DNA of 10,698 nucleotides from Chromobacteriaceae bacterium. Lineage in GTDB: Bacteria; Pseudomonadota; Gammaproteobacteria; Burkholderiales; Aquaspirillaceae. Positions within the stretch are counted from its first letter, which is position 1, and each line of letters begins with the position of its first letter. The DNA lies in contig JASLDQ010000015.1 of the NCBI GenBank assembly GCA_030151505.1, positions 1-10,698 of the forward strand, given 5' to 3'. The notes below the pieces were generated by a model, which saw nothing but the letters and a program-made list of their open reading frames with translations, did no database searches and was not told the origin of the DNA. A program made the position numbers and the translations under genes. Shown here one piece after another: positions 1 to 10,698 of this stretch.

Positions 1-636
1 GTCGCCCACCAGCACCAGCGTCGGGGCCGCGATGCCGGCCAGCCAGGCGCGGGCGTCGTGCCGGGATACGCCCAGCATCAGCTGGGTGACGGCCTCCCAG
101 TCGATCAGGCTACCCTGCTCCCTGATCGCCTCCACCAGTTCTGCCTGCTCGCGCAGGAGACGGCTGCCGTAAAGCCAGGGCTTGCTCATATCGAAGCGCA
201 GCTCGGCGCCACCGGTCGCCAGGGCACCGCTCCAGCTCGCGGCGATGGCGGCATTGGCGGCATCGGCATGCGCCAGCGTACTGGCCAGCACCAGCCGCCC
301 GACCCGGGCGGGATGACGGTGGACAAGGTGCTGCGCCACCATGCCGCCATAGGACAGGCCCACGACATGAGCCTGGCGGATGTCGAGCGCCTGCAGCAGC
401 TCGGCCACGTCGTCGGCCTGACGGTCAAGATCGTAGAACGGCACCACTGGGCGGACGCTGCGTCACTGGCCGCGGAAATCCAGCGTCAGCACCCGGTAGG
501 CGCGCGTCAGTTGCGGCAACTGCAGATACCAGCCGGCGGAGTCCATGGTGATGCCGTTGAGCAGCACGACCGTCTCGGGGCCGTCGCCATGGAGTTCGTA
601 ATAGAGGGTGGTGTCGGGCAGGCGGAGGTGCGGCAT
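1..636 (-). pseudogene. Alpha/beta-hydrolase gene, interrupted by an in-frame TGA and cut by the window edge
   Basis: Reading leftwards from the ATG at 636-634, the frame encodes an alpha/beta-hydrolase fold protein. It starts MPHLRLPDTTLYYELHGDGP, followed by an oxyanion-loop-like LLNGITMDSAGW (about residues 25-36), a DFRGQ strand end and a nucleophile elbow GLSYGG with Ser95. Codon 58 (465-463) is TGA, between RGQ and RSVRP. Homologues commonly read RGxGRS or RGQGxS here, so a GGA to TGA change is the simplest explanation. After it the same frame stays open to the window edge (codon 212, ending LVLVGD), so the rest of the gene looks intact. The acid and histidine of the triad would lie mostly outside the window. 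The substrate is unknown; enol-lactonase-like or general esterase are possible. It lies 59 bp downstream of folA on the same strand and may be co-transcribed. A recent nonsense mutation and a sequence error are both possible. Confidence 0.8.
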
Positions 637-687
637 GACGGCGGGCCTTTCATGACATTGCTTTATGCCAGCATAGGCCCGCCGTCA
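636..687. repeat. Perfect 13-bp inverted repeat between folA and the hydrolase gene
   Basis: TGACGGCGGGCCT at 636-648 is exactly the reverse complement of AGGCCCGCCGTCA at 675-687, with a 26-base loop. In minus-strand RNA the downstream arm takes in part of the AAAGG ribosome-binding sequence and the first base of the hydrolase ATG (636). The fold could therefore mask hydrolase initiation. It could also mark the 3' end of the thyA-folA message, although no T-run follows the stem on the minus strand. The loop holds a smaller palindrome, TATGC-CA-GCATA (664-675). The repeat is seen directly; its function is inferred. Confidence 0.6.
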
Positions 688-695
688 CGGAAGCT

Positions 696-1175
696 TCAAG
701 CGCGCTCGTAGCGCACGAAGCGGTAACGGAAATCGGCGTTGGCGTGGTCCTCGCACCAGGCTTCGCGCCAGCGCGCGCGGTCGAATTCGGGGAAGAAGGC
801 GTCGCCGGCAACCTCGATGCCGATCTCGGTCAGATAGAGCCGGTCGGCGCGCTCGAGCGCGTGGCCGTACAGTTCGGCCCCACCGATGACGAACACCTCG
901 TCGACCGCCCCGGCAGCGGCCAGCGCGGCGTCCAGCGATGTCGTCGCGACGCAGCCTTCGGCATGCCAGCCGGGATTGCGGGTGACCACGATATTGAGGC
1001 GCCCCGGCAGCGGACGGCCGAGCGATTCCCAGGTCTTGCGCCCCATCACGATGGGCTTGCCCAGCGTGGTGCGCTTGAAGTGGGCCAGGTCTTCCGGCAG
1101 GCGCCACGGCAGGCGGTTATCGATGCCGATGGCGCGGTTTTTCGCCATGGCGGCGATCAGGCTGACGATGGTCAT
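696..1175 (-). CDS. folA: Dihydrofolate reductase
   Basis: The 159-residue product reduces 7,8-dihydrofolate to tetrahydrofolate with NADPH in the cytoplasm. It is full length for bacterial chromosomal DHFR (E. coli has 159). Visible motifs are the N-terminal strand [14 protein letters not shown], the Met20-type loop and substrate segment [12 protein letters not shown], with Asp29 equivalent to catalytic Asp27 of E. coli. Next come [21 protein letters not shown] (about 40-60), which contacts NADPH phosphate, and the FVIGGAELY dinucleotide loop (about 95-103). The ATG at 1175 overlaps the thyA stop as ATGA, a 4-bp overlap that suggests translational coupling. The neighbour is functionally matched, because ThyA makes the dihydrofolate this enzyme recycles. 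No unusual residues were seen. Confidence 0.97.
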
Positions 1176-1966
1176 ACCGCCACCTCGGCCTTGATGTGCG
1201 GATGCGGGTCGTAGCCTTCGATGGCGAAGTCCTCGAACTTGAAGGCGAACAGATCGCGCACCCCGGGATTGATCCGCATAAGCGGTAGCGGTCGCGGTTC
1301 GCGCGTGAGCTGCAGGCGGGCCTGCTCAAGATGGTTGCTGTAGAGATGCGCGTCGCCCAGCGTGTGGACAAACTCGCCCGGCTGCAGGCCGCAGACCTGC
1401 GCCACCATCAGGGTCAGCAAGGCGTAGCTGGCGATGTTGAACGGCACGCCGAGGAAGATGTCGGCCGAACGCTGGTAGAGCTGGCAGGAGAGCTTGCCGT
1501 CGGCGACGTAGAACTGGAACAGCGCGTGACAGGGCGGCAGGGCCATCTCGTCCACCAGCGCGGGGTTCCAGGCCGACACGATCAGGCGACGGCTGTCGGG
1601 ATTCTTCTTGATCATGTTGACCACATTGGCGATCTGGTCGATGTGGCGGCCGTCCGGCGCCGGCCAGCTGCGCCACTGCGCGCCGTAGACCGGGCCGAGG
1701 TCGCCGTTCTCGTCGGCCCATTCGTCCCAGATGCGCACGCCGTTGTCCTGCAGGTATTTGACGTTGGTGTCGCCGGCCAGAAACCACAAGAGTTCGTGGA
1801 CGATGGACCTCAGGTGCAGCTTCTTGGTAGTGAGCATCGGGAAGCCGTCAGCCAAGTCGAAACGCATCTGGTAGCCGAACACCGAACGGGTCCCGGTGCC
1901 GGTGCGGTCGGTCTTGTCGGCGCCGTGTTCGAGCACGTGGCGCATCAGGTCGAGATAGGGCTTCAT
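1172..1966 (-). CDS. thyA: Thymidylate synthase
   Basis: The product methylates dUMP to dTMP using 5,10-methylene-tetrahydrofolate and releases dihydrofolate. The ATG at 1966 gives 264 residues starting [15 protein letters not shown], the same length and start context as E. coli ThyA. A TTG nine bases upstream (1975) is in frame but has no room for a ribosome-binding site, whereas AGAG lies 9 nt before the ATG. The catalytic cysteine is Cys146 in [12 protein letters not shown], and the dUMP-binding residues Arg166, Asp169 and Asn177 are in [13 protein letters not shown]. The [11 protein letters not shown] phosphate loop is near the N-terminus. It is the first gene of a thyA-folA operon and is transcribed divergently from flhB. 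Confidence 0.97.
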
Positions 1967-2276
1967 TCGGGGCAACTCTGAGGAAATCGGATCGCGCGAT
2001 TTTAGCGCACAACGATCCGGCCGGCGGCCGGATCGTCATCACCCCCGACCATGGGTGCCGGCCGTATTGGCCGACGGCGACCGACACGCCGACCGCAGTC
2101 ACCGCATCCGTCCTTCGGCTGGCCGGCCCCCGCGGAGCATCGCCCCGCCCATGCCGCCAACACGTTCTTATGCCAGACGTTTTATCTGTGCATCAGACCG
2201 CTGCCGACAAAATGACGGAGCATTAGCCATGGTAGACTTGCTGCCCAATTGATACCGACCCGGTCAGACGGCGCCG
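1967..2276. other. 310-bp divergent intergenic region between thyA and flhB
   Basis: I see no convincing gene here. The region must carry promoters for thyA (leftward) and for the flhB cluster (rightward). On the minus strand a -10-like TAAAAT (2004-1999) lies about 33 bases before the thyA ATG, without a good -35 at standard spacing. On the plus strand GCCGACAA (2203-2210) matches seven of eight bases of the sigma-28 -10 consensus GCCGATAA, but no TAAA sits at the expected distance upstream. A perfect hairpin at 2012-2036 is listed separately. flhB has no clear Shine-Dalgarno sequence just before its ATG. Confidence 0.5.
2012..2036. repeat. Perfect 11-bp inverted repeat with 3-base loop
   Basis: ACGATCCGGCC (2012-2022) and GGCCGGATCGT (2026-2036) are exact reverse complements around the loop GGC. 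The stem is very stable but no T-run follows on either strand, so an intrinsic terminator is unlikely, and none is expected between divergent genes. It could be an operator, a barrier between the two transcription units or a 5'-UTR hairpin in the thyA message. The symmetry is seen directly; the role is not known. Confidence 0.5.
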
Positions 2277-3455
2277 ATGGCACAAGACAGCGACGAGGAA
2301 CGCACAGAAGAGGCGACACCCCGACGAATACAGAAGGCCCGCGAAGAAGGCCAGGTACCCCGTTCGCGCGAGTTGTCGACCTTTGCCGTGACCATGACCG
2401 GCACCGCCCTGCTGATCGCGACCGGCGGCCACATCTACCGGCAGTTCAACCGCGTGCTGGAACGGGCTTTCACCTTCGACCAGAAAACGCTGGCCGACCA
2501 GAGCCTGATCGGCAATCAGCTGCGCGAATCGCTGTTCGATATGCTGCTGGCGCTGGCGCCACTGCTGGCGGCGCTGTTTATCGCGGCGGCGGTGGTGCCG
2601 CTGCTGGTGGGCGGCTGGAACGTGGCGGACAACGCCTTCGAGCCAAAGTTTTCCAAACTCAACCCGATTTCCGGCTTCAAGCGGATGTTCTCGGTGATGA
2701 GTCTGGTGGAAGCGGCCAAGGCGGTACTCAAGAGCTTCCTGATCGGTGGCATCGCCACCTGGGTGATCTGGCACGAGCGCGACCAGTTGATCGGCCTCAT
2801 CACCCTGCCGCTGGACCGCAGCATCAAGAGCGTGTTCGAAATGACCGAGCACACCTTCCTGATCGTGGTCAGCGCGATGGTGCTGCTGGTGGTGATCGAC
2901 GTACCGTGGCAGATATACCAGTACAACAAGAATCTCCGCATGAGCAAGCAGGAGATCAAGGAAGAAATGAAGCAGAGCGAAGGCAGCCCCGAAGTGAAGG
3001 GCCGCATTCGCCAGATGCAGCGCGCCGCGGCCCGGCGTCGGATGATGCGCGACGTGCCCAATGCCAGCGTGGTGGTGACCAACCCGACCCACTACGCGGT
3101 GGCGATCCAGTACGAGGACGGCATGCCCGCCCCCAGGATCGTGGCAAAAGGCACGCTGCGGCTGGCCGAGAAGATCGTCGGCGCGGCCAAGGAACACCGG
3201 GTCACCATCATGCGGGCTCCGCCGTTTGCCCGCGCGCTGTACCACAACACCGAAATCGGCGACGAGATTCCGGCGGCCCTCTACAGTGCCGCCGCCCAAG
3301 TGCTGGCCTATGTGTTCCAGCCCAAGCAATACGAAACGGCCGGCGGCGTGGCGCCGGTCTATCCGGATCAGCTGCCGGTCCCGGCCGAGCTCGATCCCGA
3401 AACCAAACAAAGCAAGCCACCCAGTGGGCCTGATACGGCACGGAACGACGCATGA
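2277..3455 (+). CDS. flhB: Flagellar type III export switch protein FlhB
   Basis: FlhB is the inner-membrane subunit of the flagellar type III export gate. Its cytoplasmic domain cleaves itself and switches export from rod/hook to filament substrates. The 392-residue product has a charged N-terminus (DEERTEEATPRRIQKAREEG), a hydrophobic region with about four membrane segments (roughly 33-52, 86-112, 144-165 and 190-212), and a basic linker with KQEIKEEMKQSEGSPEVKGR (about 224-243). The autocleavage motif NPTH is at 269-272, the same numbering as the Asn269-Pro270 site of Salmonella FlhB. The ATG at 2277 gives the canonical family start; no strong ribosome-binding site precedes it. Its stop overlaps the flhA ATG by 4 bp. 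It is the first gene of the plus-strand flagellar cluster. Confidence 0.97.
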   Translation: MAQDSDEERTEEATPRRIQKAREEGQVPRSRELSTFAVTMTGTALLIATGGHIYRQFNRVLERAFTFDQKTLADQSLIGNQLRESLFDMLLALAPLLAALFIAAAVVPLLVGGWNVADNAFEPKFSKLNPISGFKRMFSVMSLVEAAKAVLKSFLIGGIATWVIWHERDQLIGLITLPLDRSIKSVFEMTEHTFLIVVSAMVLLVVIDVPWQIYQYNKNLRMSKQEIKEEMKQSEGSPEVKGRIRQMQRAAARRRMMRDVPNASVVVTNPTHYAVAIQYEDGMPAPRIVAKGTLRLAEKIVGAAKEHRVTIMRAPPFARALYHNTEIGDEIPAALYSAAAQVLAYVFQPKQYETAGGVAPVYPDQLPVPAELDPETKQSKPPSGPDTARNDA

Positions 3456-5536
3456 ATTTTGACGCTCTGCTGAAACGCTTCAACCTCAACTACACCGCGC
3501 TGGCCGGCCCCATCCTCATCCTGCTGATCCTGGCGATGATGGTGCTGCCGCTGCCGACCATCGTGCTGGACATGTTCTTCACCTTCAACATCGCGGTGTC
3601 GATCATCGTGCTGATGGTCGGCCTGCAGGTGAGAAAGCCGCTGGAATTCTCCGCCTTCCCGTCCATCCTGCTGCTGACCACGCTGTTGCGCCTGTCGCTC
3701 AACGTCGCGTCCACCCGGGTGATCCTGCTGCACGGCCACGAAGGCGCCGACGCCGCCGGCAAGGTGATCGAGGCCTTTTCCCACTTCCTGGTCGGCGGCA
3801 ACCCCGCCATCGGCATCGTGGTGTTCGTCATCCTCACCATTATCAACTTCGTGGTGATCACCAAGGGCGCCGGCCGCATTGCCGAAGTGAGCGCCCGCTT
3901 CACCCTGGACGCGATGCCGGGCAAGCAGATGGCGATCGACGCCGACCTCAACGCCGGCCTGATCGACGAAGACGAGGCGCGCCGACGCCGCGGCGAGATT
4001 TCCGAGGAGGCCGACTTCTTCGGCTCGATGGACGGCGCGTCCAAGTTCGTGCGCGGCGACGCGATGGCCGGCATCCTGATCATGCTGATCAACGTGGTCG
4101 GCGGCCTGCTCGTCGGGGTGGCCCAGCATGACCTGCCGATCGGCCAGGCGCTGGAAACCTACACCCTGCTGACCATCGGCGACGGTCTGGTCGCCCAGAT
4201 CCCGGCCCTCATCATCTCGACCGCCGCCGGTATCGTCGTCACCCGAGTCGGCTCCGACAAGGACCTGTCCGAGCAGTTCGTCGGCCAGATGTTCGCCAAG
4301 CCGCAGGTGTTGTACGTGACTGCCGTCGTGATCGGCCTGATCGGCCTGATTCCGAACATGCCGCACTTCTCCTTCCTGCTGATCGCCGGCAGCCTGGCCG
4401 GCCTCGGCTGGTGGATGGACCAGCGCGCAATCAAGCTGGCCGCCGCGCAGAAACAGGCCGCGCTCGACATTCCGGCCGAACCGGATCAGCCGCTGGCCGA
4501 GGTCAGCTGGAACGACGTGCAGCCGGTCGATCCGATCGGGCTGGAGGTCGGCTACCGCCTGATCCCGCTGGTGGACCGCGCGCAGGACGGCGAACTGCTG
4601 CGCCGCGTGCGCGGCATCCGCAAGAAAATCGCGCAGGAAGTCGGCTTTCTGGTGCCGGCGGTGCACATCCGCGACAACCTCGAGATCAAGCCCAACGCCT
4701 ACCGCATCCTATTGCGCGGGGTGGAGGTCGGCAGCGGCGAGGCTTTTGTCGGCCAGTATCTGGCGATCAATCCCGGCCGGGTGATGGGCGAGGTGCCCGG
4801 CACGCCGACCACCGACCCGGCCTTCGGCCTGCCGGCCCTGTGGATCGACGCGATCCAGCGCGACAATGCCCAGTCGCTGGGCTACACCGTGGTCGATGCC
4901 AGCACCGTGGTCGCCACGCATATTTCCAACGTGCTGCAGAATCACTCGGCCGAACTCCTGGGCCGCGAGGAAACCCAGCAACTGGTCGACCATGTGGCCA
5001 AGGACTCGGCCAAGCTGATCGAGGAACTGGTGCCGAAGGTCATCCCGATCGGCACGCTGCAGAAGGTGTTGCAAAGCCTGCTGACCGAGGAAATCCCGAT
5101 CCGCGACATGAAGGGCATCATCGAAACGCTGGCCGAACACATCCCCCTCACCCAGGACATCGACGAGCTGACCGCCGCCGTGCGCGTCAAACTCGCGCGC
5201 GCCATCGTGGCGCAGGTTTTCCCCGGCAACGGCGAGCTGTCGGTGATGACGCTCGACCCGCAACTCGAACATATCCTCGTGTCCGCCATCCAGAGCAAGG
5301 CCGGCGGCGGGCTGGAGCCGGGACTGGCCGAAACGCTGATCCAGTCGGCGGCCCAGCAGGCCGAACGCATCGAGCAGCAGGGGCTCAACCCGGTCATGCT
5401 GGTGCCCCAGCCCCTGCGGCCGGTGCTGTCGAAATTCCTGCGCCGCGCGCTGCCGCACCTGGCGGTGCTGGCCCACAACGAAATTCCCGACAACCGCACG
5501 ATCCGCGTGGTCGCCGTGGTCGGAGGCAGAGCATAA
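3452..5536 (+). CDS. flhA: Flagellar type III export gate protein FlhA
   Basis: FlhA forms the large export-gate ring in the flagellar basal body. Its membrane half uses proton-motive force, and its cytosolic half docks chaperone-substrate complexes. The 694-residue length is normal for the FHIPEP family. The N-terminal third has several membrane helices (for example 17-39, 41-58, 118-138, 205-225 and 287-315). Family signatures are RLSLNVASTR (80-89), AGRIAEVSARFTLDAMPGKQ (about 140-159) with the following IDADLNAG, and EADFFGSMDGASKFVRGDAM (186-205). A soluble C-terminal domain runs from about 330, with the conserved GYRLIPLVD near its beginning. The start lies inside the flhB stop (ATGA), so translation is probably coupled. 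A 92-bp gap separates it from flhF. Confidence 0.97.
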   Translation: MNFDALLKRFNLNYTALAGPILILLILAMMVLPLPTIVLDMFFTFNIAVSIIVLMVGLQVRKPLEFSAFPSILLLTTLLRLSLNVASTRVILLHGHEGADAAGKVIEAFSHFLVGGNPAIGIVVFVILTIINFVVITKGAGRIAEVSARFTLDAMPGKQMAIDADLNAGLIDEDEARRRRGEISEEADFFGSMDGASKFVRGDAMAGILIMLINVVGGLLVGVAQHDLPIGQALETYTLLTIGDGLVAQIPALIISTAAGIVVTRVGSDKDLSEQFVGQMFAKPQVLYVTAVVIGLIGLIPNMPHFSFLLIAGSLAGLGWWMDQRAIKLAAAQKQAALDIPAEPDQPLAEVSWNDVQPVDPIGLEVGYRLIPLVDRAQDGELLRRVRGIRKKIAQEVGFLVPAVHIRDNLEIKPNAYRILLRGVEVGSGEAFVGQYLAINPGRVMGEVPGTPTTDPAFGLPALWIDAIQRDNAQSLGYTVVDASTVVATHISNVLQNHSAELLGREETQQLVDHVAKDSAKLIEELVPKVIPIGTLQKVLQSLLTEEIPIRDMKGIIETLAEHIPLTQDIDELTAAVRVKLARAIVAQVFPGNGELSVMTLDPQLEHILVSAIQSKAGGGLEPGLAETLIQSAAQQAERIEQQGLNPVMLVPQPLRPVLSKFLRRALPHLAVLAHNEIPDNRTIRVVAVVGGRA

Positions 5537-5628
5537 TCACGCACCGGGCCGGGACCGGAGACGGCCAGCACCGCGCAGGCATTCCGGCTGAATCGGCCAT
5601 GGACAGACTTAACAACAGGCTTTAGGCG

Positions 5629-7119
5629 ATGGTTGTCAAAAAGTATTACGGCAAGACCACCCGCGACGCATTGCGTCAGGTACGGGATGAACTGGGTACC
5701 GACGCGCTCATTCTTTCCAACCGCACCATTCAGGGCGGTGGCGTGGAGATCATGGCGGTGGCCGACGGGGACGTGAACGCACTGGCGGCCTCGCTGTCCA
5801 CCAGCCCCGGCGGCAGCGCGATGGGAGCCCGGCTGACGCGGCAGGCACCGGCCGGCAAGCAGCCGTCGCCGGTGGCCAGCGCGCTGGCGCGCACCTACGC
5901 GCTGCCGGTCGAGCCGCTGGACGAGCCGGTCGCCCGCGTCTTCCACCCGGACGAACAGCCCGAGGCGATCCGCCGCCCGGATTTCCCCCGCTTCACCCCG
6001 CATCCGTCGCCGGCCTACGCCGCACCGGCCGCGCCGCCGGAGCCGTCCCCGCCTGCCGTGGTCGCGACCCAGCCGGCCGCAACTGCACCGGAGATGCCGA
6101 AGGACGACGTCGAGAGCCTGCCGGAACTGGGAGAGTCGCCCGGCGAAACCGCGACGACGCAAAAGCTCGATCAGCTCAACGACGAGATGCGCGAGCTCAA
6201 ATCTCTGCTGCAGACCCAGATGGCCAGCCTTGCCTGGGCGCAGCTGGAGGATCACAGCCCGCGCCAGGCCGAGCTGTTCCGCCAGCTGCTGTCGATCGGC
6301 ATGAGCCCGTCGTTGTGCCGTCAGCTGACCAGCCGCCTGCCGGCCCAGTTCGACGACGAGGCCGCGCTGAAATGGGCCAAATCCGCACTGGCGCACAATC
6401 TGCGCACGATCAAGGACGACGACGACATGGTCACCGGCGGCGGGATTTTCGCGCTGGTCGGCCCGACCGGCGTCGGCAAGACCACCACGGTCGCCAAGCT
6501 CGCCGCCCGTGCCACCATCCGCCACGGCGCCGAGTCGGTCGCACTGATCACCACCGACAGCTACCGCATCGGCGCGCAGGACCAGCTCAAGCTCTACGGC
6601 CGCATCCTCGGGGTGTCGGTGTACGCGGTCGACAACGAGGCTGACCTGCAACTGACGCTGGCCGACCTCTCCCACAAGCGGCTGGTGCTGATCGACTCGG
6701 TCGGCATGGGACAGCGCGACAGCCGGGTGGCGGCGCAGACCACCATGTACGCCGCGGGCGGCATGAACAAGGGGCGGCCGATCAAGCGCATTCTGCTGCT
6801 CGCCGCCAATGCCGCCGGCCATACGCTGCAGGATGTCATTACGCGCTATCAGGGCGACAACCTGATCGGTTGCGTGCTGTCCAAGATCGACGAATCGCCG
6901 ACCCTGGGCGTGGCGCTCGACGTGGCGATCCGCCATCGCCTGCCGCTGTTCTACGTCACCAACGGTCAGCGCGTGCCGGAAGACCTCCATCTGGCCGACC
7001 CGCAGTATCTGGTCGAGCGGGCCTTCCAGCCGCTCAAGGGCAATGCCGGACCGTTCGCGCTCAAGCAGGACGAATTCCGCATCCTGCAGGCCGCCCAAAC
7101 CAACTGGACCCAGGGCTGA
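5629..7119 (+). CDS. flhF: Flagellar placement GTPase FlhF (SRP family)
   Basis: FlhF is a signal-recognition-particle-type GTPase that dimerises on GTP and directs where the first flagellar parts assemble, usually at a pole. The 496-residue protein starts with the typical MVVKKYYGKTTRDALRQVRD and LILSNR segment. A low-complexity Pro/Ala-rich B domain follows (about 60-165), then a short helix-rich N domain (about 175-262) and the G domain. GTPase motifs are G1 GPTGVGKT (278-285), G2 region TTDSYRIGAQDQ (308-319), G3 DSVGMGQRD (356-364), G4-like SKID (418-421) and closing TNGQRVPEDL (444-453). G3 has Ser where DT is more usual, a mild change. The last base of its TGA is the first base of the flhG ATG (TGATG), so the two genes are probably translated together. 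Confidence 0.96.
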   Translation: MVVKKYYGKTTRDALRQVRDELGTDALILSNRTIQGGGVEIMAVADGDVNALAASLSTSPGGSAMGARLTRQAPAGKQPSPVASALARTYALPVEPLDEPVARVFHPDEQPEAIRRPDFPRFTPHPSPAYAAPAAPPEPSPPAVVATQPAATAPEMPKDDVESLPELGESPGETATTQKLDQLNDEMRELKSLLQTQMASLAWAQLEDHSPRQAELFRQLLSIGMSPSLCRQLTSRLPAQFDDEAALKWAKSALAHNLRTIKDDDDMVTGGGIFALVGPTGVGKTTTVAKLAARATIRHGAESVALITTDSYRIGAQDQLKLYGRILGVSVYAVDNEADLQLTLADLSHKRLVLIDSVGMGQRDSRVAAQTTMYAAGGMNKGRPIKRILLLAANAAGHTLQDVITRYQGDNLIGCVLSKIDESPTLGVALDVAIRHRLPLFYVTNGQRVPEDLHLADPQYLVERAFQPLKGNAGPFALKQDEFRILQAAQTNWTQG

Positions 7120-7979
7120 TGGCAGTCGAGGATCAGGCCGCCAGCCTTCGTCGCCTGCGCCTGTCGATATCCGCGCCGTCGAGCTTCGCCTTTCTGGGGG
7201 GGCGCGATGCTGGCACCAGCACGCTGGTGGCGGAACTGGGCATGGCGCTGGCATTGATGCAGCACCGGCGGGTACTATTGGCCGATGGTCATCACGGCCA
7301 GTTGCTGGCACGCCGCTTCAACCTGACTGAGCGCGCGTCGCTGGACGTGGTGCTGTCATCGCAGCTGGCGCTGGACGATGCGGTCGCCACCCTGCCCGGC
7401 CAGGTGCCGCTGCTAAATCTGCACGCCCGTCCGGTCATGCTGGCCCAGCTCAACCAGGCTCTGCAGGACCGCATCCAGCACGAATATGCCGCGCTGGTGC
7501 GCGACACCGAGTTCGTCCTGATCGACACGCCGGCCGACGATGACCTGGCCCTGGCCGCGGTGGCCGACGACATCGTGCTGGTGCTGTCGCCCGACGGCGC
7601 CGGACTGACCGAGACGTACGCGGCGGTCAAGCGCCTGTCGACCGATTTTGGCCGCCGCAAGTTCAACGTGCTGGTCAACCGGGCGCACGGACTGGATGAG
7701 GCGCAACAGCTGTTTCAGCGGCTGTCCCGTGTCGCCAGCGAGTACCTGACCGTCTCGCTGCGCTGGGTGGGCTTTGTGCCGGAAGACCACCGGATGAAGC
7801 GTGCGGCGGTGATGAAAACCACCGCCGTGCAGGCGTTCAGCGATTGCGAAGGGGCGATCGCTTGCTGCCAGCTGGCCAATGCGCTGCCCTTGTGGAGCAC
7901 GATGGCCGGCAGCGCGCCGGAATTGTTCGAACGACTCAGCAGCGCCAGGCGCCTGCTGGTCGAAGTGGATACGCCTTGA
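7119..7979 (+). CDS. flhG: FlhG/FleN-like MinD-family protein with degenerate ATPase motifs
   Basis: The position between flhF and fliA and the MinD/ParA-like fold identify this as FlhG (FleN/YlxH), which limits flagellar number and stimulates FlhF. The ATG at 7119 gives 286 residues and places a DQAASLR motif at 5-11, matching the DQAxxLR helix known to activate FlhF GTPase. The nucleotide site is abnormal. The deviant Walker A (family KGGVGKT) reads GGRDAGTS (27-34), so the signature Lys is Gly28 and the catalytic Lys is Thr33. The DxD segment after the second strand reads DGHHG, with His58 where MinD has catalytic Asp40. Switch II reads DTPADDD (136-142), where the family usually has DxxAG. 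Strands and spacing are otherwise kept (VLVLSPDGAGLTETYAAVK, KFNVLVNRA). The C-terminal LFERLSSARRLL could be an amphipathic membrane helix. ATP hydrolysis is probably lost; FlhF activation may remain. Confidence 0.9.
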   Translation: MAVEDQAASLRRLRLSISAPSSFAFLGGRDAGTSTLVAELGMALALMQHRRVLLADGHHGQLLARRFNLTERASLDVVLSSQLALDDAVATLPGQVPLLNLHARPVMLAQLNQALQDRIQHEYAALVRDTEFVLIDTPADDDLALAAVADDIVLVLSPDGAGLTETYAAVKRLSTDFGRRKFNVLVNRAHGLDEAQQLFQRLSRVASEYLTVSLRWVGFVPEDHRMKRAAVMKTTAVQAFSDCEGAIACCQLANALPLWSTMAGSAPELFERLSSARRLLVEVDTP

Positions 7980-8015
7980 TCCGGATCACAACAAGAAAGA
8001 AAACTGACGTTCAGC

Positions 8016-8753
8016 ATGAGCCGACTTCGTGCCTACAAAACTGATGCTGTCGCACCGCATCTCGATGTAACGCCTTACACCCCGTTGGTGCGCAAGCTGG
8101 CTGGCATGATGATCAGCCGCCTGCCGGCCAGCGTGGAGCTTGACGATCTGGTGCAGGTCGGCCTGATCGGCCTGATCGAAGCCTCGCAGCAATTCGACGC
8201 AGCCCAGGGCGTCCTGTTCGAGACTTTCGCCTCGCAGCGCATCCGCGGCGCGATGCTGGACGAGTTGCGCCGGCTCGACTGGCTACCGCGTCAGGCGCGC
8301 CGCAACGCCCGCCAGATCGAAGAAGCGATCACCCGGCTGGAGCAGGAGCATGGCCGGCCGCCGCGAGAAGAGGAAGTCGCGGACCGGCTGCAGATGACAC
8401 TGGCCGACTACCAGTCGGCCCTGTTCGACTGCAAGGGCCACCAATTGCTGTACTACGAGGATTTTGCCAGCGCCGACGAGGATGGCAGCGCGAGCGCCTT
8501 CGTCGACAACGTGGCCGACACCCATCAAGGTGATCCGCTCGAGACCTTGCGTGACGGACGCTTTCGCCAGCAGCTGGTGGAGGTGATCGGCCAGTTGCCG
8601 GAGCGCGACCAGCTGGTGATGAGCCTCTATTATCAGCAGGAGCTGAATCTCAAGGAAATCGGCGCGGTGCTGGGAGTGACCGAGTCGCGCGTCAGCCAGC
8701 TGCACAGCCAGGCGGTGGCGCGCATCCGCGCCCGTCTGCAGGAATGGCTGTGA
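8016..8753 (+). CDS. fliA: Flagellar sigma factor FliA (sigma-28)
   Basis: FliA directs RNA polymerase to late flagellar, motor and chemotaxis promoters and is held inactive by FlgM until the hook is finished. The 245-residue length fits the family. Region 2 spans about 22-92 (YTPLVRKLAGMMISRLPASV, ELDDLVQVGLIGLIEA, FETFASQRIRGAMLDELR, DWLPR). Region 3 is about 96-140 (IEEAITRLEQEHGRPPREEE). Region 4 is about 190-240, with LPERDQLVMSLYY and the helix-turn-helix LNLKEIGAVLGVTESRVSQL. The start is 36 bp after flhG. No convincing Shine-Dalgarno lies at normal spacing, only an A-rich AAGAAAGAAAA stretch, so translation may depend on read-through from flhG. No flgM is visible in the window. Confidence 0.96.
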   Translation: MSRLRAYKTDAVAPHLDVTPYTPLVRKLAGMMISRLPASVELDDLVQVGLIGLIEASQQFDAAQGVLFETFASQRIRGAMLDELRRLDWLPRQARRNARQIEEAITRLEQEHGRPPREEEVADRLQMTLADYQSALFDCKGHQLLYYEDFASADEDGSASAFVDNVADTHQGDPLETLRDGRFRQQLVEVIGQLPERDQLVMSLYYQQELNLKEIGAVLGVTESRVSQLHSQAVARIRARLQEWL

Positions 8754-8807
8754 TACGACGGCAAGGCGGCACCGCTATCGCCTGAATCGGCCGGGCAAAA
8801 AAACAAC

Positions 8808-8813
8808 AAGGAA
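8808..8813 (+). promoter_or_regulatory. Strong ribosome-binding site for motC
   Basis: AAGGAA lies 6 nt before the ATG at 8820 and fixes that start. It is the clearest Shine-Dalgarno sequence in the flagellar cluster, which fits a stator protein needed in many copies. No sigma-28 promoter (TAAA, 15 bases, GCCGATAA) was found in the 66-bp gap before motC. Confidence 0.6.
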
Positions 8814-8819
8814 TCATAG

Positions 8820-9560
8820 ATGGACGCGATCAGCATCATCGGTATCATCGTCGGCATCGCCGCCATTTTGCTGGGGCAAGCGCTGGAAGGCGGCCACGTC
8901 GGTTCACTCGTACAACTGACGGCTTTCCTGATCGTCATCGGCGGCACACTGGGAGCCGTCCTGCTGCAGAGCACCCCCAAACAGTTTGGCGAAGGCATCA
9001 GGATGCTGAGCTGGGTCTTCAGCCCGCCGCCGGTCAACAGCCAGAAGATCATCCGCGACGTGGTGAACTGGAGCCAGAACTCCCGCAAGAGCGGCCTGCT
9101 GTCACTGGAGGCATTTGTCGGCGCCCAGCGCGATCCGTTTGCCAAGAAAGGCCTGCAGATGCTGGTGGATGGCGCCGCGCCTGACATCATCCGCGCCTCG
9201 CTCGAACTGGACATCAGTGCCTACGAAAACCGCCAGCGCCTCGCAGCCAAGATTTGGGAATCGGCAGGCGGTTACGCTCCGACCATCGGGATCATTGGGG
9301 CCGTGCTCGGTCTGATTCATGTGATGGAAAACCTGGCAGATCCCTCCAAACTCGGTGCCGGCATCGCCGTGGCCTTCGTCGCGACGGTCTATGGCGTCGG
9401 CTCGGCCAACCTGCTGTTCCTGCCCATCGCCAACAAGCTCAGAACGCTGATCGCGGCTCAAGTTGCCACGAAAGACATGCTGGTTGAAGGTTTGGTATCG
9501 ATTGCCAACGGAGAGAATCCACGGCTGATCGAAAGCAAGCTGCAAGGCTTCGTCGGCTGA
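8820..9560 (+). CDS. motC: Flagellar motor stator protein, MotA/PomA family (MotC-like)
   Basis: This is the A subunit of the stator, which surrounds a B-subunit dimer and turns ion flow into rotor torque. The 246-residue protein resembles the shorter PomA/MotC group rather than the longer E. coli MotA (295 residues). Four membrane segments are visible: about 4-20, 29-50, 152-170 and 179-205. The cytoplasmic loop carries NSRKSGLLSLE, where Arg89/Lys90 and Glu97 fit the conserved charged residues that act on FliG. YAPTIGIIGAVLGLI holds the conserved proline (Pro154) at the start of the third segment. EGGH at 23-26 is typical of MotC-type proteins. Such genes are normally followed by motD/motB; here a terminator and a convergent gene follow. 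The ion used (proton or sodium) cannot be told without the B subunit. Confidence 0.93.
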   Translation: MDAISIIGIIVGIAAILLGQALEGGHVGSLVQLTAFLIVIGGTLGAVLLQSTPKQFGEGIRMLSWVFSPPPVNSQKIIRDVVNWSQNSRKSGLLSLEAFVGAQRDPFAKKGLQMLVDGAAPDIIRASLELDISAYENRQRLAAKIWESAGGYAPTIGIIGAVLGLIHVMENLADPSKLGAGIAVAFVATVYGVGSANLLFLPIANKLRTLIAAQVATKDMLVEGLVSIANGENPRLIESKLQGFVG

Positions 9561-9571
9561 TCGCCATGAAA

Positions 9572-9598
9572 GACGGCACGTCTGCAAAACGTGCCGTC
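9572..9598. terminator. Probable bidirectional intrinsic terminator between convergent genes
   Basis: GACGGCACGT (9572-9581) and ACGTGCCGTC (9589-9598) are perfect 10-bp arms around a 7-base loop, 11 bp after the motC stop. On the minus strand the stem is followed by TTTC; on the plus strand only CCTGTTCCC follows. The U-tracts are weak both ways. Its position between the convergent motC and prepilin genes supports a terminator for both. Confidence 0.75.
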
Positions 9599-9630
9599 CT
9601 GTTCCCACGCAAACGTCCTTGCAACCCGCG

Positions 9631-10338
9631 CTATAACCTCCCCGCCAACGCCAGCCGGTTCTTGAGCGTCAGTTCGACCACCGGCCAAACCAGATCATCC
9701 AGTCGCTCCTGGCTGCCGTCGCGGGCCGCTTGGTAATAGGGTTGCAGGCTGCTACTGCCCGGCAGGTTGGCGCTTTCATAGTTGTTGACACTCCCGCCGC
9801 CGACCCCGGCGCGATTGGGACCATGACTGATCACGACGGCGACATAGTTTCCCAGATCGGTTTCCGACACGCTGCCGGCATTGAGCGACAACCCCGTCAG
9901 ACGGATAGCCCCCGCCGTGGCGAAAGTTATGGATGGTGCCGCGCCGCTCGCATCCGTGTAGTTGCGGCTGACCGCATAACTCAGCGGCGTCATCCATTTG
10001 TCCCGGCCACTTCCCAATCCCAGCGCGGCCCAAGGCAGCCAACCGGTCCTGTCGACCATGCTGCAGTCAGGCATTCCGACCTGACTGCTTGCCGCAGGAT
10101 TGGCCGGGCACGGCAGGTAGCCATGCTTGAGCGCGTACAGTTCCAGCGCGCCCACCGCCGTTTCGGGCATCAATGCGTTGGGGTTGCTGCCCTGCTGTTG
10201 CTGCGATGCCCGCAGCAACGGCAGCCCGACCATGCCCATCGCCATTCCCACGACCAGCAGGACGACGGCCAGTTCGACCAAGGAAAAGCCCCGTGCCTTT
10301 CTCCGTATTACCGGCCACTCAACATGGCATGCCGTCAT
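9631..10338 (-). CDS. Prepilin-like protein with N-terminal methylation motif and LPCPA signature
   Basis: The 235-residue product has a 17-residue leader rich in basic residues (RRKARG) before the prepilin peptidase site GFSLVE. Cleavage after Gly17 would give an N-terminal Phe, with Glu at mature position 5. A hydrophobic helix (about 18-42) follows. The body carries GYLPCPA (73-79), Cys92, GWLPWAALGLGSGRDKW (99-115) with PLSYAV following, AVVISHGPNRAG (167-178) and a C-terminal DDLVWPV with a final RLALAGRL. This series is typical of a recurring family of type IV pilus/type II secretion-like minor pilins with an LPCPA motif and no settled function. Cys77 and Cys92 could form a disulphide in the periplasm. 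The ATG at 10338 has GGAG 7 nt upstream (10349-10346), and no other in-frame start lies before the cleavage site. It overlaps the upstream gene by 20 bp. Confidence 0.85.
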   Translation of the reverse strand: MTACHVEWPVIRRKARGFSLVELAVVLLVVGMAMGMVGLPLLRASQQQQGSNPNALMPETAVGALELYALKHGYLPCPANPAASSQVGMPDCSMVDRTGWLPWAALGLGSGRDKWMTPLSYAVSRNYTDASGAAPSITFATAGAIRLTGLSLNAGSVSETDLGNYVAVVISHGPNRAGVGGGSVNNYESANLPGSSSLQPYYQAARDGSQERLDDLVWPVVELTLKNRLALAGRL

Positions 10339-10698
10339 GTTCTATCTCCGCGCCGCTCATGGTTTTTTTCAGGGTGAAACGGGTCTGGCACCCCGAGAAG
10401 GTGAAGGTCGCCCGGGTTGGGCTGAGCTGTTGATAGTCTTCGATGGTATCGAGCCAGCAGGCCAGCCATTGCGAGGAGCTACACGAGTAGCCTCCCGGCG
10501 GACTGGCGATCGCAAGCCGAAGCTCCGTCGACGTAGTTGGCAAGATCGTGGCCGTAGCCAGCCAGGCCTGGGCCAGCCGCCTCGCGACTTGTCTGACTAC
10601 GGGCGTCAGGAAATCATCAAGGGTGATGAAACGGTAACGTCCTGGCCATTGAGTAGCAGAGAAATCCAGCTGATAGGAATAATCACACTGGCTGCTCG
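10319..10698 (-). CDS. C-terminal part of an unrecognised protein (5' end beyond the window)
   Basis: A frame open from the right edge to TGA at 10321-10319 gives 125 C-terminal residues. Recognisable stretches include CDYSYQLDFSATQWPGRYRF, LDDFLTPVVRQVARRLAQAW, and a Cys-containing tail with GGYSCSSSQWLACWLDTIED and FTFSGCQTRFTL. Several cysteines suggest an exported or periplasmic protein. I do not recognise the family. The 20-bp overlap with the downstream prepilin-like gene and the shared strand indicate one operon, so it may be another pilus or pseudopilus component; that is inference from context. The N-terminus, which would show any signal or prepilin site, lies outside the window. Confidence 0.65.
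   Translation of the reverse strand, partial: SSQCDYSYQLDFSATQWPGRYRFITLDDFLTPVVRQVARRLAQAWLATATILPTTSTELRLAIASPPGGYSCSSSQWLACWLDTIEDYQQLSPTRATFTFSGCQTRFTLKKTMSGAEIEHDGMPC

Follow-up and report, generated by a model that had tools for sequence, protein, structure and literature searches.

The window analysed here is a 10,698-nucleotide stretch (positions 1 to 10,698) of contig JASLDQ010000015.1 from a Chromobacteriaceae bacterium (assembly GCA_030151505.1), and it carries, within a flagellar operon, an flhG orthologue whose product lacks the usual motifs of an ATP site. FlhG is described as an ATPase, and its ATP-driven dimerisation lets it shuttle between cytoplasm and membrane (PMC12826062, a December 2025 review). 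The question raised by the locus is whether an FlhG can act without ATP. We consider it fairly probable that the window's protein is no longer a MinD-type ATPase and is most likely a nucleotide-independent adaptor. The simplest reading is that it links C-ring assembly to GTP hydrolysis by FlhF, because the bacterial order surveyed here has kept the FlhF-activating helix and a C-ring region that in studied FlhGs binds independently of nucleotide, while the site for ATP-tied functions has eroded.

The nucleotide site of the window's FlhG

The flhG start shares one base with the flhF stop (TGATG). In a profile-profile alignment the window's protein matched 15 FlhG-like proteins with a retained KGGxGK[T/S] at a probability of 100, and both this and the multiple alignment place the window's loop over KGGVGKT, His58 over the second Asp of DAD, and DTPAD over DTAAG (Table 1). 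Three sequence hallmarks of MinD/ParA enzymes are thus absent: KGGxGK[T/S] with both lysines, the catalytic Asp and DxxAG. The fold is MinD-like, with FlhG/FleN closest, and membership by descent in the FlhG/FleN/YlxH group is indicated by the place after flhF and before fliA in a flagellar operon and by the DQAxxLR helix. A Pfam scan of the protein returned no family at an expectation (E) value of 0.001 or less, and the best NCBIfam match (60.2 bits) lies below its curated cut-off of 201.75; this test is weak, as the canonical FlhG of locus L075 also falls below the NCBIfam MinD cut-offs, yet passes several Pfam ones. From these motifs the window's protein is predicted to have lost nucleotide binding.

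A sequence-only reading of this DNA had proposed an FlhG with three altered nucleotide-site motifs in one intact frame, the FlhF-activating helix DQAASLR intact at residues 5-11, and an adjoining flhF with intact GTPase motifs. All of the motifs that it quoted lie where it placed them, with GPTGVGKT, DSVGM and SKIDE present in FlhF, and its picture of an FlhG that keeps the helix without the ATPase site extends to all 17 members of the window's clade and to an order-wide set in which none of 142 proteins has a complete site (see below). It had also argued that a simple indel at the G7 run does not account for the loop. An indel or sequencing error there can be ruled out, since relatives in open frames also lack both lysines, and 12 database homologues and 16 other clade rows share the motif loss.

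Apart from the window's own protein, the first protein search returned 12 homologues, of which six carry the name Chromobacterium; the nearest (P0002, P0003 and L010) are 64-65% identical to the window FlhG. Both lysines are absent from all 12 in the alignment, and the helix from D5 to R11 is invariant across the 13 proteins. The Crenobacter luteus and Gulbenkiania mobilis loci show the same lysine loss and helix retention. In a FastTree phylogeny of 189 FlhGs, built with the motif columns left out, the window sits with these two in a 17-row clade (support 100) in which no row has Lys at either position. We take this clade to be Neisseriales, since Gulbenkiania belongs there in the NCBI taxonomy. 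The alignment and mapping of motif positions on a tree that the sequence-only reading had suggested thus reveal a lysine loss that is clade-wide, and the normal P-loop in close relatives that it had named as counter-evidence is found in none of the 12 homologues or the 17 rows.

A further possibility is a split of function, with a second FlhG or a MinD elsewhere in the genome supplying the ATP-dependent part. When 16 clade genomes were searched with a canonical FlhG profile, the best match was the degenerate gene in all 16. All 14 second-best matches fetched are KGGVGKT proteins, which we read by eye as MinD and which could be called upon in such a split, as could MinD-like proteins with KGGVGKT but no helix that occur in some other genomes of the order. 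Four of the latter (L181 1883-2704, L189 1905-2765, L196 1844-2743 and L186 1887-2840) are FlhG-like in sequence; by eye, however, they adjoin SulP-permease-like (4/4) and rhodanese-like (2/4) frames and not flagellar genes, and no second canonical FlhG occurs among the inspected matches of the 16 clade genomes, weaker matches being unread. We regard a split of function as very unlikely.

Spread of the motif loss among related FlhGs

The order sample comprised 300 genomes searched with a profile of degenerate proteins as query; 176 matched, and loci were taken among the matches listed. We take the GTDB order to be Burkholderiales, and the class from which controls were drawn to be Gammaproteobacteria. 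There were 149 non-duplicate loci including L001 and L002 (L003, L004 and L078 are duplicates), or 150 with the window, and 142 of these passed a test for an adjacent FlhF and for length. Seven were dropped for want of an adjacent FlhF (L026, which is also degenerate, L179, L181, L186, L189, L196 and L201) and L056 as a stub. The control set drew on 29 loci returned by the class search and 20 chosen down the listing, 49 non-duplicate loci in all, with 47 passing the same test; L115 and L123, dropped for want of an adjacent FlhF, show KGGVGK[T/S]. The two draws overlapped at genomes G002 and G051; the G002 locus was dropped and G051 gave none.

The full set of two lysines and the catalytic Asp is found in none of the 142 order-set FlhGs. 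Both lysines are present in six (with His in one and Asn in five at the catalytic position), Lys at the P-loop column only in 40, the signature Lys only in 11, and neither in 85; the last loop Gly is also absent in 20. DQAxxLR is present in 141, the remaining protein having HQASGLQ. The two lysines, the Asp and DxxAG are present in all 47 control proteins, and DQAxx[L/M]R in 38. In the other nine (L112, with SQMSGLR, L113 and L116-L122) KGGxGK[T/S] is kept and the helix motif absent. DQAxxLR is therefore typical of, but not obligatory for, FlhG/FleN/YlxH, being absent from FleN as well as from these nine. A second sample of 113 database proteins, drawn from the top 120 matches listed for a 30-row profile and thus biased to that profile's kind, with flhF adjacency not established, included none with the full catalytic set, 19 with Lys at the P-loop column and 113 with DQAxxLR; source names include Sideroxydans, Sideroxyarcus, Gallionellaceae, Nitrosomonadales and one metagenome-assembled genome labelled 'Gammaproteobacteria bacterium'.

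The query profile was itself degenerate and loci came from the stronger matches listed, a selection bias that could hide canonical FlhGs, and we therefore made a second entry through FlhF. The FlhF cut-off was passed by 193 of the 300 order genomes, part of which were read: 26 loci were picked by eye among the matches listed, from genomes without a fetched flhF-adjacent FlhG. An FlhG-like open reading frame (ORF) lies downstream in 21 of them, with GK[T/S] seen by eye in two (L213 and L221) and KGGxGK[T/S] in none; the other five (L204, L223, L225, L227 and L228, the last at a contig end) have no FlhG match downstream of flhF. The open flhF frames of L225 and L227 are very long (about 880-906 residues). 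At L224 (1872-2762, genome G173) an extremely degenerate FlhG-like ORF with DQGAGLR follows flhF, and the same genome encodes the separate helix-less protein of L181.

The motif loss is specific to FlhG, since the P-loop of the adjoining FlhF is intact in 141 of the 142 order-set loci (the exception is a 217-residue partial ORF) and the clade's MinD-like proteins keep KGGVGKT (14/14). The other GTPase motifs of these FlhFs are D[T/S]xG, found in 136/142 with a wide pattern (104/142 with a strict one), and [T/S]KxDE, found in 139/142.

Control and order rows are split by one change in the FlhG tree (support 100) and in an FlhF tree of 188 rows. An rplB tree of 19 control and five order genomes, in which only those 19 control genomes were placed and from which five order sequences (by a motif filter) and G460 (no match) are missing, also splits the two by one change (support 88). 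For GK[T/S] on the FlhG tree, parsimony requires at least nine changes; a losses-only model requires 13, and collapsing branches with support under 80, 90 and 95 gives 12, 10 and 6. We claim only that GK[T/S] was lost several times and state no exact number, because the tree is a quick one (FastTree only) in which long branches meet. Loss of hydrolysis probably preceded loss of ATP binding, because the Asp is absent even where GK[T/S] is kept. An FlhDC master regulator that makes the ATP function superfluous was rejected as the driver, as FlhC (E<1e-50) is found in 38/107 genomes without GK[T/S] and 10/33 with it (hand-compiled genome lists), and at this threshold in none of 15 genomes of the window's clade.

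Selection, retained residues and the mini-FlhG

In 18 of 21 close pairs without GK[T/S], neither the former ATP half nor the C-terminal half exceeds a ratio of nonsynonymous to synonymous substitution rates (dN/dS) of 0.20, which argues that the gene is not decaying. Under decay, FlhG would be disappearing and would persist only because it overlaps flhF and sits in the operon. The repeated erosion of the nucleotide half, and even its deletion, would suit this, as would the five FlhF-led loci without an FlhG match and five order-set matches (L024, L063, L166, L174 and L199) with a stop inside the matched stretch, a few of which may be broken or mis-framed. The frame of the window and most others are open, however, and with Q6, Y167 and K171 present in 142/142 order-set proteins we rate decay as the least probable of the explanations weighed here.

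Of the window's 286 alignment columns, a conservation of at least 90% across the order set is reached by D5, Q6, A7, L10, R11, D56, Y167, K171, G218, D223, P241 (where the window itself carries Ser) and A253; the columns that vary little or not at all among the control proteins include the P-loop, both Asps and switch II. Three of the window's residues can be compared with K177, R207 and F215 of Geobacillus FlhG (GtFlhG), which are crucial for binding the C-ring protein FliY, with no need of nucleotide (PMC12327844). The chain of structure 4rz3 is numbered eight higher than the published sequence (chain Lys44 is K36; worked by hand), so that its K185, R215 and F223 are K177, R207 and F215. The window keeps the equivalents K171, R201 and Y209 (Phe to Tyr), and by analogy these may serve in C-ring binding; outside the window's clade Arg201 and Phe or Tyr at 209 are less well kept. 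At the C-terminus, the best hydrophobic moment over 18 residues is 0.41, which overlaps the control range and is not diagnostic.

The helix and a segment of the C-ring region recur in a much shorter protein. At locus L211 (1906-2259, plus strand, genome G152) flhF is followed by a 117-residue ORF and then by fliA- and motA-like frames, read by eye. This mini-FlhG consists of DQAEGLRRL, a short link, AYARIK and then FDSLQRVAREYLGVRLEYLG, the retained segment running from AYARIK to EYLGVRLEYLG; P-loop, strand 2 and switch II are absent. A database search restricted to proteins of similar length gave 51 matches of 87-136 residues resembling it. The contigs that carry them reach 2.56 Mb; some are no longer than a few kb, and the proteins there may be fragments. 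Named sources are Rhodocyclaceae metagenome-assembled genomes, Sulfuricystis multivorans (Sterolibacteriaceae in NCBI) and Sulfuritalea, and the annotations listed read mainly 'hypothetical protein' or 'MinD-like ATPase ...'. In an alignment of L211 with 19 of the 51, D12, Q13, Y41 and K45 (the K171 equivalent) are invariant in all 20 rows; the flhF-fliA setting was read for L211 only. We lean, by a narrow measure, towards a broader proposal, that FlhG is a pseudo-ATPase across the Betaproteobacteria and mostly a nucleotide-free C-ring/FlhF adaptor, one group (Rhodocyclaceae, Sulfuricystis and Sulfuritalea) being reduced to a mini-FlhG of about 117 residues made of those two modules.

The features of the window are collected in Table 1. 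Beyond the flagellar genes, two frames upstream (696-1175 and 1172-1975, both on the minus strand) look by eye dihydrofolate reductase-like and thymidylate synthase-like, and downstream of the motA-type gene a frame at 9631-10338 (minus strand) has a prepilin-like N-terminus, GFSLVELAVVLLVVGMA, also by eye.

Table 1. Coordinates of flagellar genes and FlhF and FlhG features in the window.
Feature	Position	Strand	Basis
flhB	2277..3455	+	ORF; named by eye from sequence and gene order
flhA	3452..5536	+	ORF; named by eye from sequence and gene order
flhF, GTPase of signal recognition particle type	5629..7119	+	TIGR03499, 267.9 bits (cut-off 174.15)
Intact FlhF P-loop GPTGVGKT	6460..6483	+	Motif reading
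flhG orthologue, degenerate nucleotide site, 286 residues	7119..7979	+	Frame intact
DQAASLR, enhancer (FlhF-activating) helix motif, residues 5-11	7131..7151	+	Q6 in 142/142 order-set proteins
Degenerate P-loop GGRDAGTS, residues 27-34 (signature Lys to Gly, P-loop Lys to Thr)	7197..7220	+	Alignments
DGHHG, residues 56-60, after strand 2 (catalytic Asp position is His58)	7284..7298	+	Alignments
Altered switch II DTPADDD, residues 136-142 (canonical DxxAG)	7524..7544	+	Alignments
Lys171, equivalent of GtFlhG Lys177 (C-ring/FliY binding)	7629..7631	+	Lys in 142/142 order set and 47/47 controls
Arg201, equivalent of GtFlhG Arg207	7719..7721	+	Arg in 17/17 clade; Asn in 83/142 order set
Tyr209, equivalent of GtFlhG Phe215	7743..7745	+	Phe or Tyr in 17/17 clade
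Predicted C-terminal helix, residues 266-284, at the position of the membrane-targeting sequence of canonical FlhG	7914..7970	+	Predicted secondary structure
fliA (sigma-28)	8016..8753	+	NF005413, 304.6 bits
MotA-type stator gene	8820..9560	+	NF006583, 386.1 bits

Proposed function and comparison with known systems

In the mechanism that we propose, the Gln of the N-terminal enhancer helix would insert into the FlhF GTP dimer and trigger GTP hydrolysis, as in canonical FlhG, and the C-terminal half (around Y167/K171 and residues 182-218) would dock on the C-ring protein FliM or FliN. With no ATP binding, the ATP-driven monomer-dimer and membrane cycle would be gone or reduced, and flagellar number and place would depend on how much adaptor is present, on FlhF's own GTP cycle and on C-ring assembly. 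The supposition of the sequence-only reading that number and placement must be controlled differently calls for caution, given the published findings on hydrolysis below. The history may have run from an ancestor of the order that lost the hydrolytic Asp, through many lineages that lost the ATP-binding Lys, to one group that deleted the nucleotide half. Published work on other FlhGs bears on this scheme. The helix Gln of studied FlhGs stimulates FlhF (PMC12826062); C-ring binding is nucleotide-independent (PMC12327844, PMC7226244); and flagellar distribution does not require ATP hydrolysis in B. subtilis (D65A; PMC12327844) and scarcely requires it in Vibrio (D60A), where ATP binding matters (PMC7226244). 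Dimerisation, membrane binding, GpsB binding and Vibrio polar targeting are the functions tied to ATP in studied FlhGs (PMC12327844, PMC7226244).

Several observations weigh against such an adaptor. The structure prediction is of low quality over residues 1-16 and therefore represents the helix badly. Three of the 21 close pairs have a dN/dS of 0.24-0.31 in one half, and comparisons of the window with L010 and L015 give 0.30-0.53, unreliable values at a dS near 1. The equivalent of Arg207 is Asn in 83/142 order-set proteins, so that beyond the clade the C-ring face is retained only in part. Within the clade the loop pattern Gly-x4-Gly-x-[S/T]-[S/T] is kept in 17/17 members and Lys occurs elsewhere in the loop in six (the window not among them), and binding of a nucleotide or some other ligand may therefore persist. 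ATP binding without hydrolysis may be common in the order, because 33/142 members keep GK[T/S] (Gly before, Thr or Ser after the Lys). Moreover, another lineage depends on ATP binding, since Vibrio K31A is non-functional (PMC7226244).

Several of these points also favour an altered but still nucleotide-binding switch, in which the Gly-rich loop would hold ATP, GTP or another nucleotide despite the missing lysines, and binding rather than hydrolysis would drive a conformational change. The kept loop glycines and hydroxyls of the clade, the GK[T/S] of the 33 members and the greater weight of binding than of hydrolysis in Vibrio (PMC7226244) would all be expected of such a switch, as would loops that are identical in the closest clade pairs (L005/L006/L007 and L015/L016), with only 64-82% identity in other pairs of the clade. 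Yet the clade lost both lysines, the catalytic Asp and DxxAG together, the 20 order-set members noted above lack the last loop Gly as well, and the mini-FlhG has no loop at all. We think such a switch possible but doubtful, and prefer the nucleotide-independent adaptor.

If the broader proposal for the Betaproteobacteria is true, the ATP cycle, seen as the heart of flagellar number control, would be dispensable in a whole major bacterial group. The order offers a large natural experiment in which the nucleotide site was eroded many times while the FlhF-activating helix and the C-ring-binding region were retained, and the mini-FlhG supplies a natural minimal protein in which the contribution of the ATP cycle could be probed. 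Annotations like 'MinD/ParA family ATP-binding protein' and 'AAA family ATPase' may mislead for such proteins. We found no account of an FlhG without an ATP site, or of a mini-FlhG, in the open-access literature searched, subscription papers being mostly outside it; the accessible parts of the December 2025 review make no mention of an FlhG without the site, and describe FlhG interactions outside monotrichous species as little known (PMC12826062).

MinD shares the fold, but the MinD-like proteins of the clade keep KGGVGKT (14/14 fetched) and start without DQAxxLR. TadZ is a MinD-fold pole protein with an altered Walker A motif, but it serves pilus assembly and is not known to carry an FlhF helix. 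The partner of FleN is FleQ, and the FleQ domain PF06490 at E<1e-10 is found in 16/20 control genomes versus 0/300 order genomes (best 1.9e-9; weak matches over the Pfam cut-off in 127/300 were taken for receiver domains). The absence of strong FleQ matches from the order fits a loss of the FleN-FleQ role, as a single contrast between two groups. FlhG/YlxH of Geobacillus and Bacillus and FlhG of Vibrio and Shewanella are ATPases with an ATP-dependent homodimer and a membrane cycle (PMC12826062, PMC12327844, PMC7226244), whereas the window's protein is without the motifs for these. Pseudomonas FleN is its mirror image, with the P-loop lysines present in the solved chains and DQAXXLR absent (PMC12713375).

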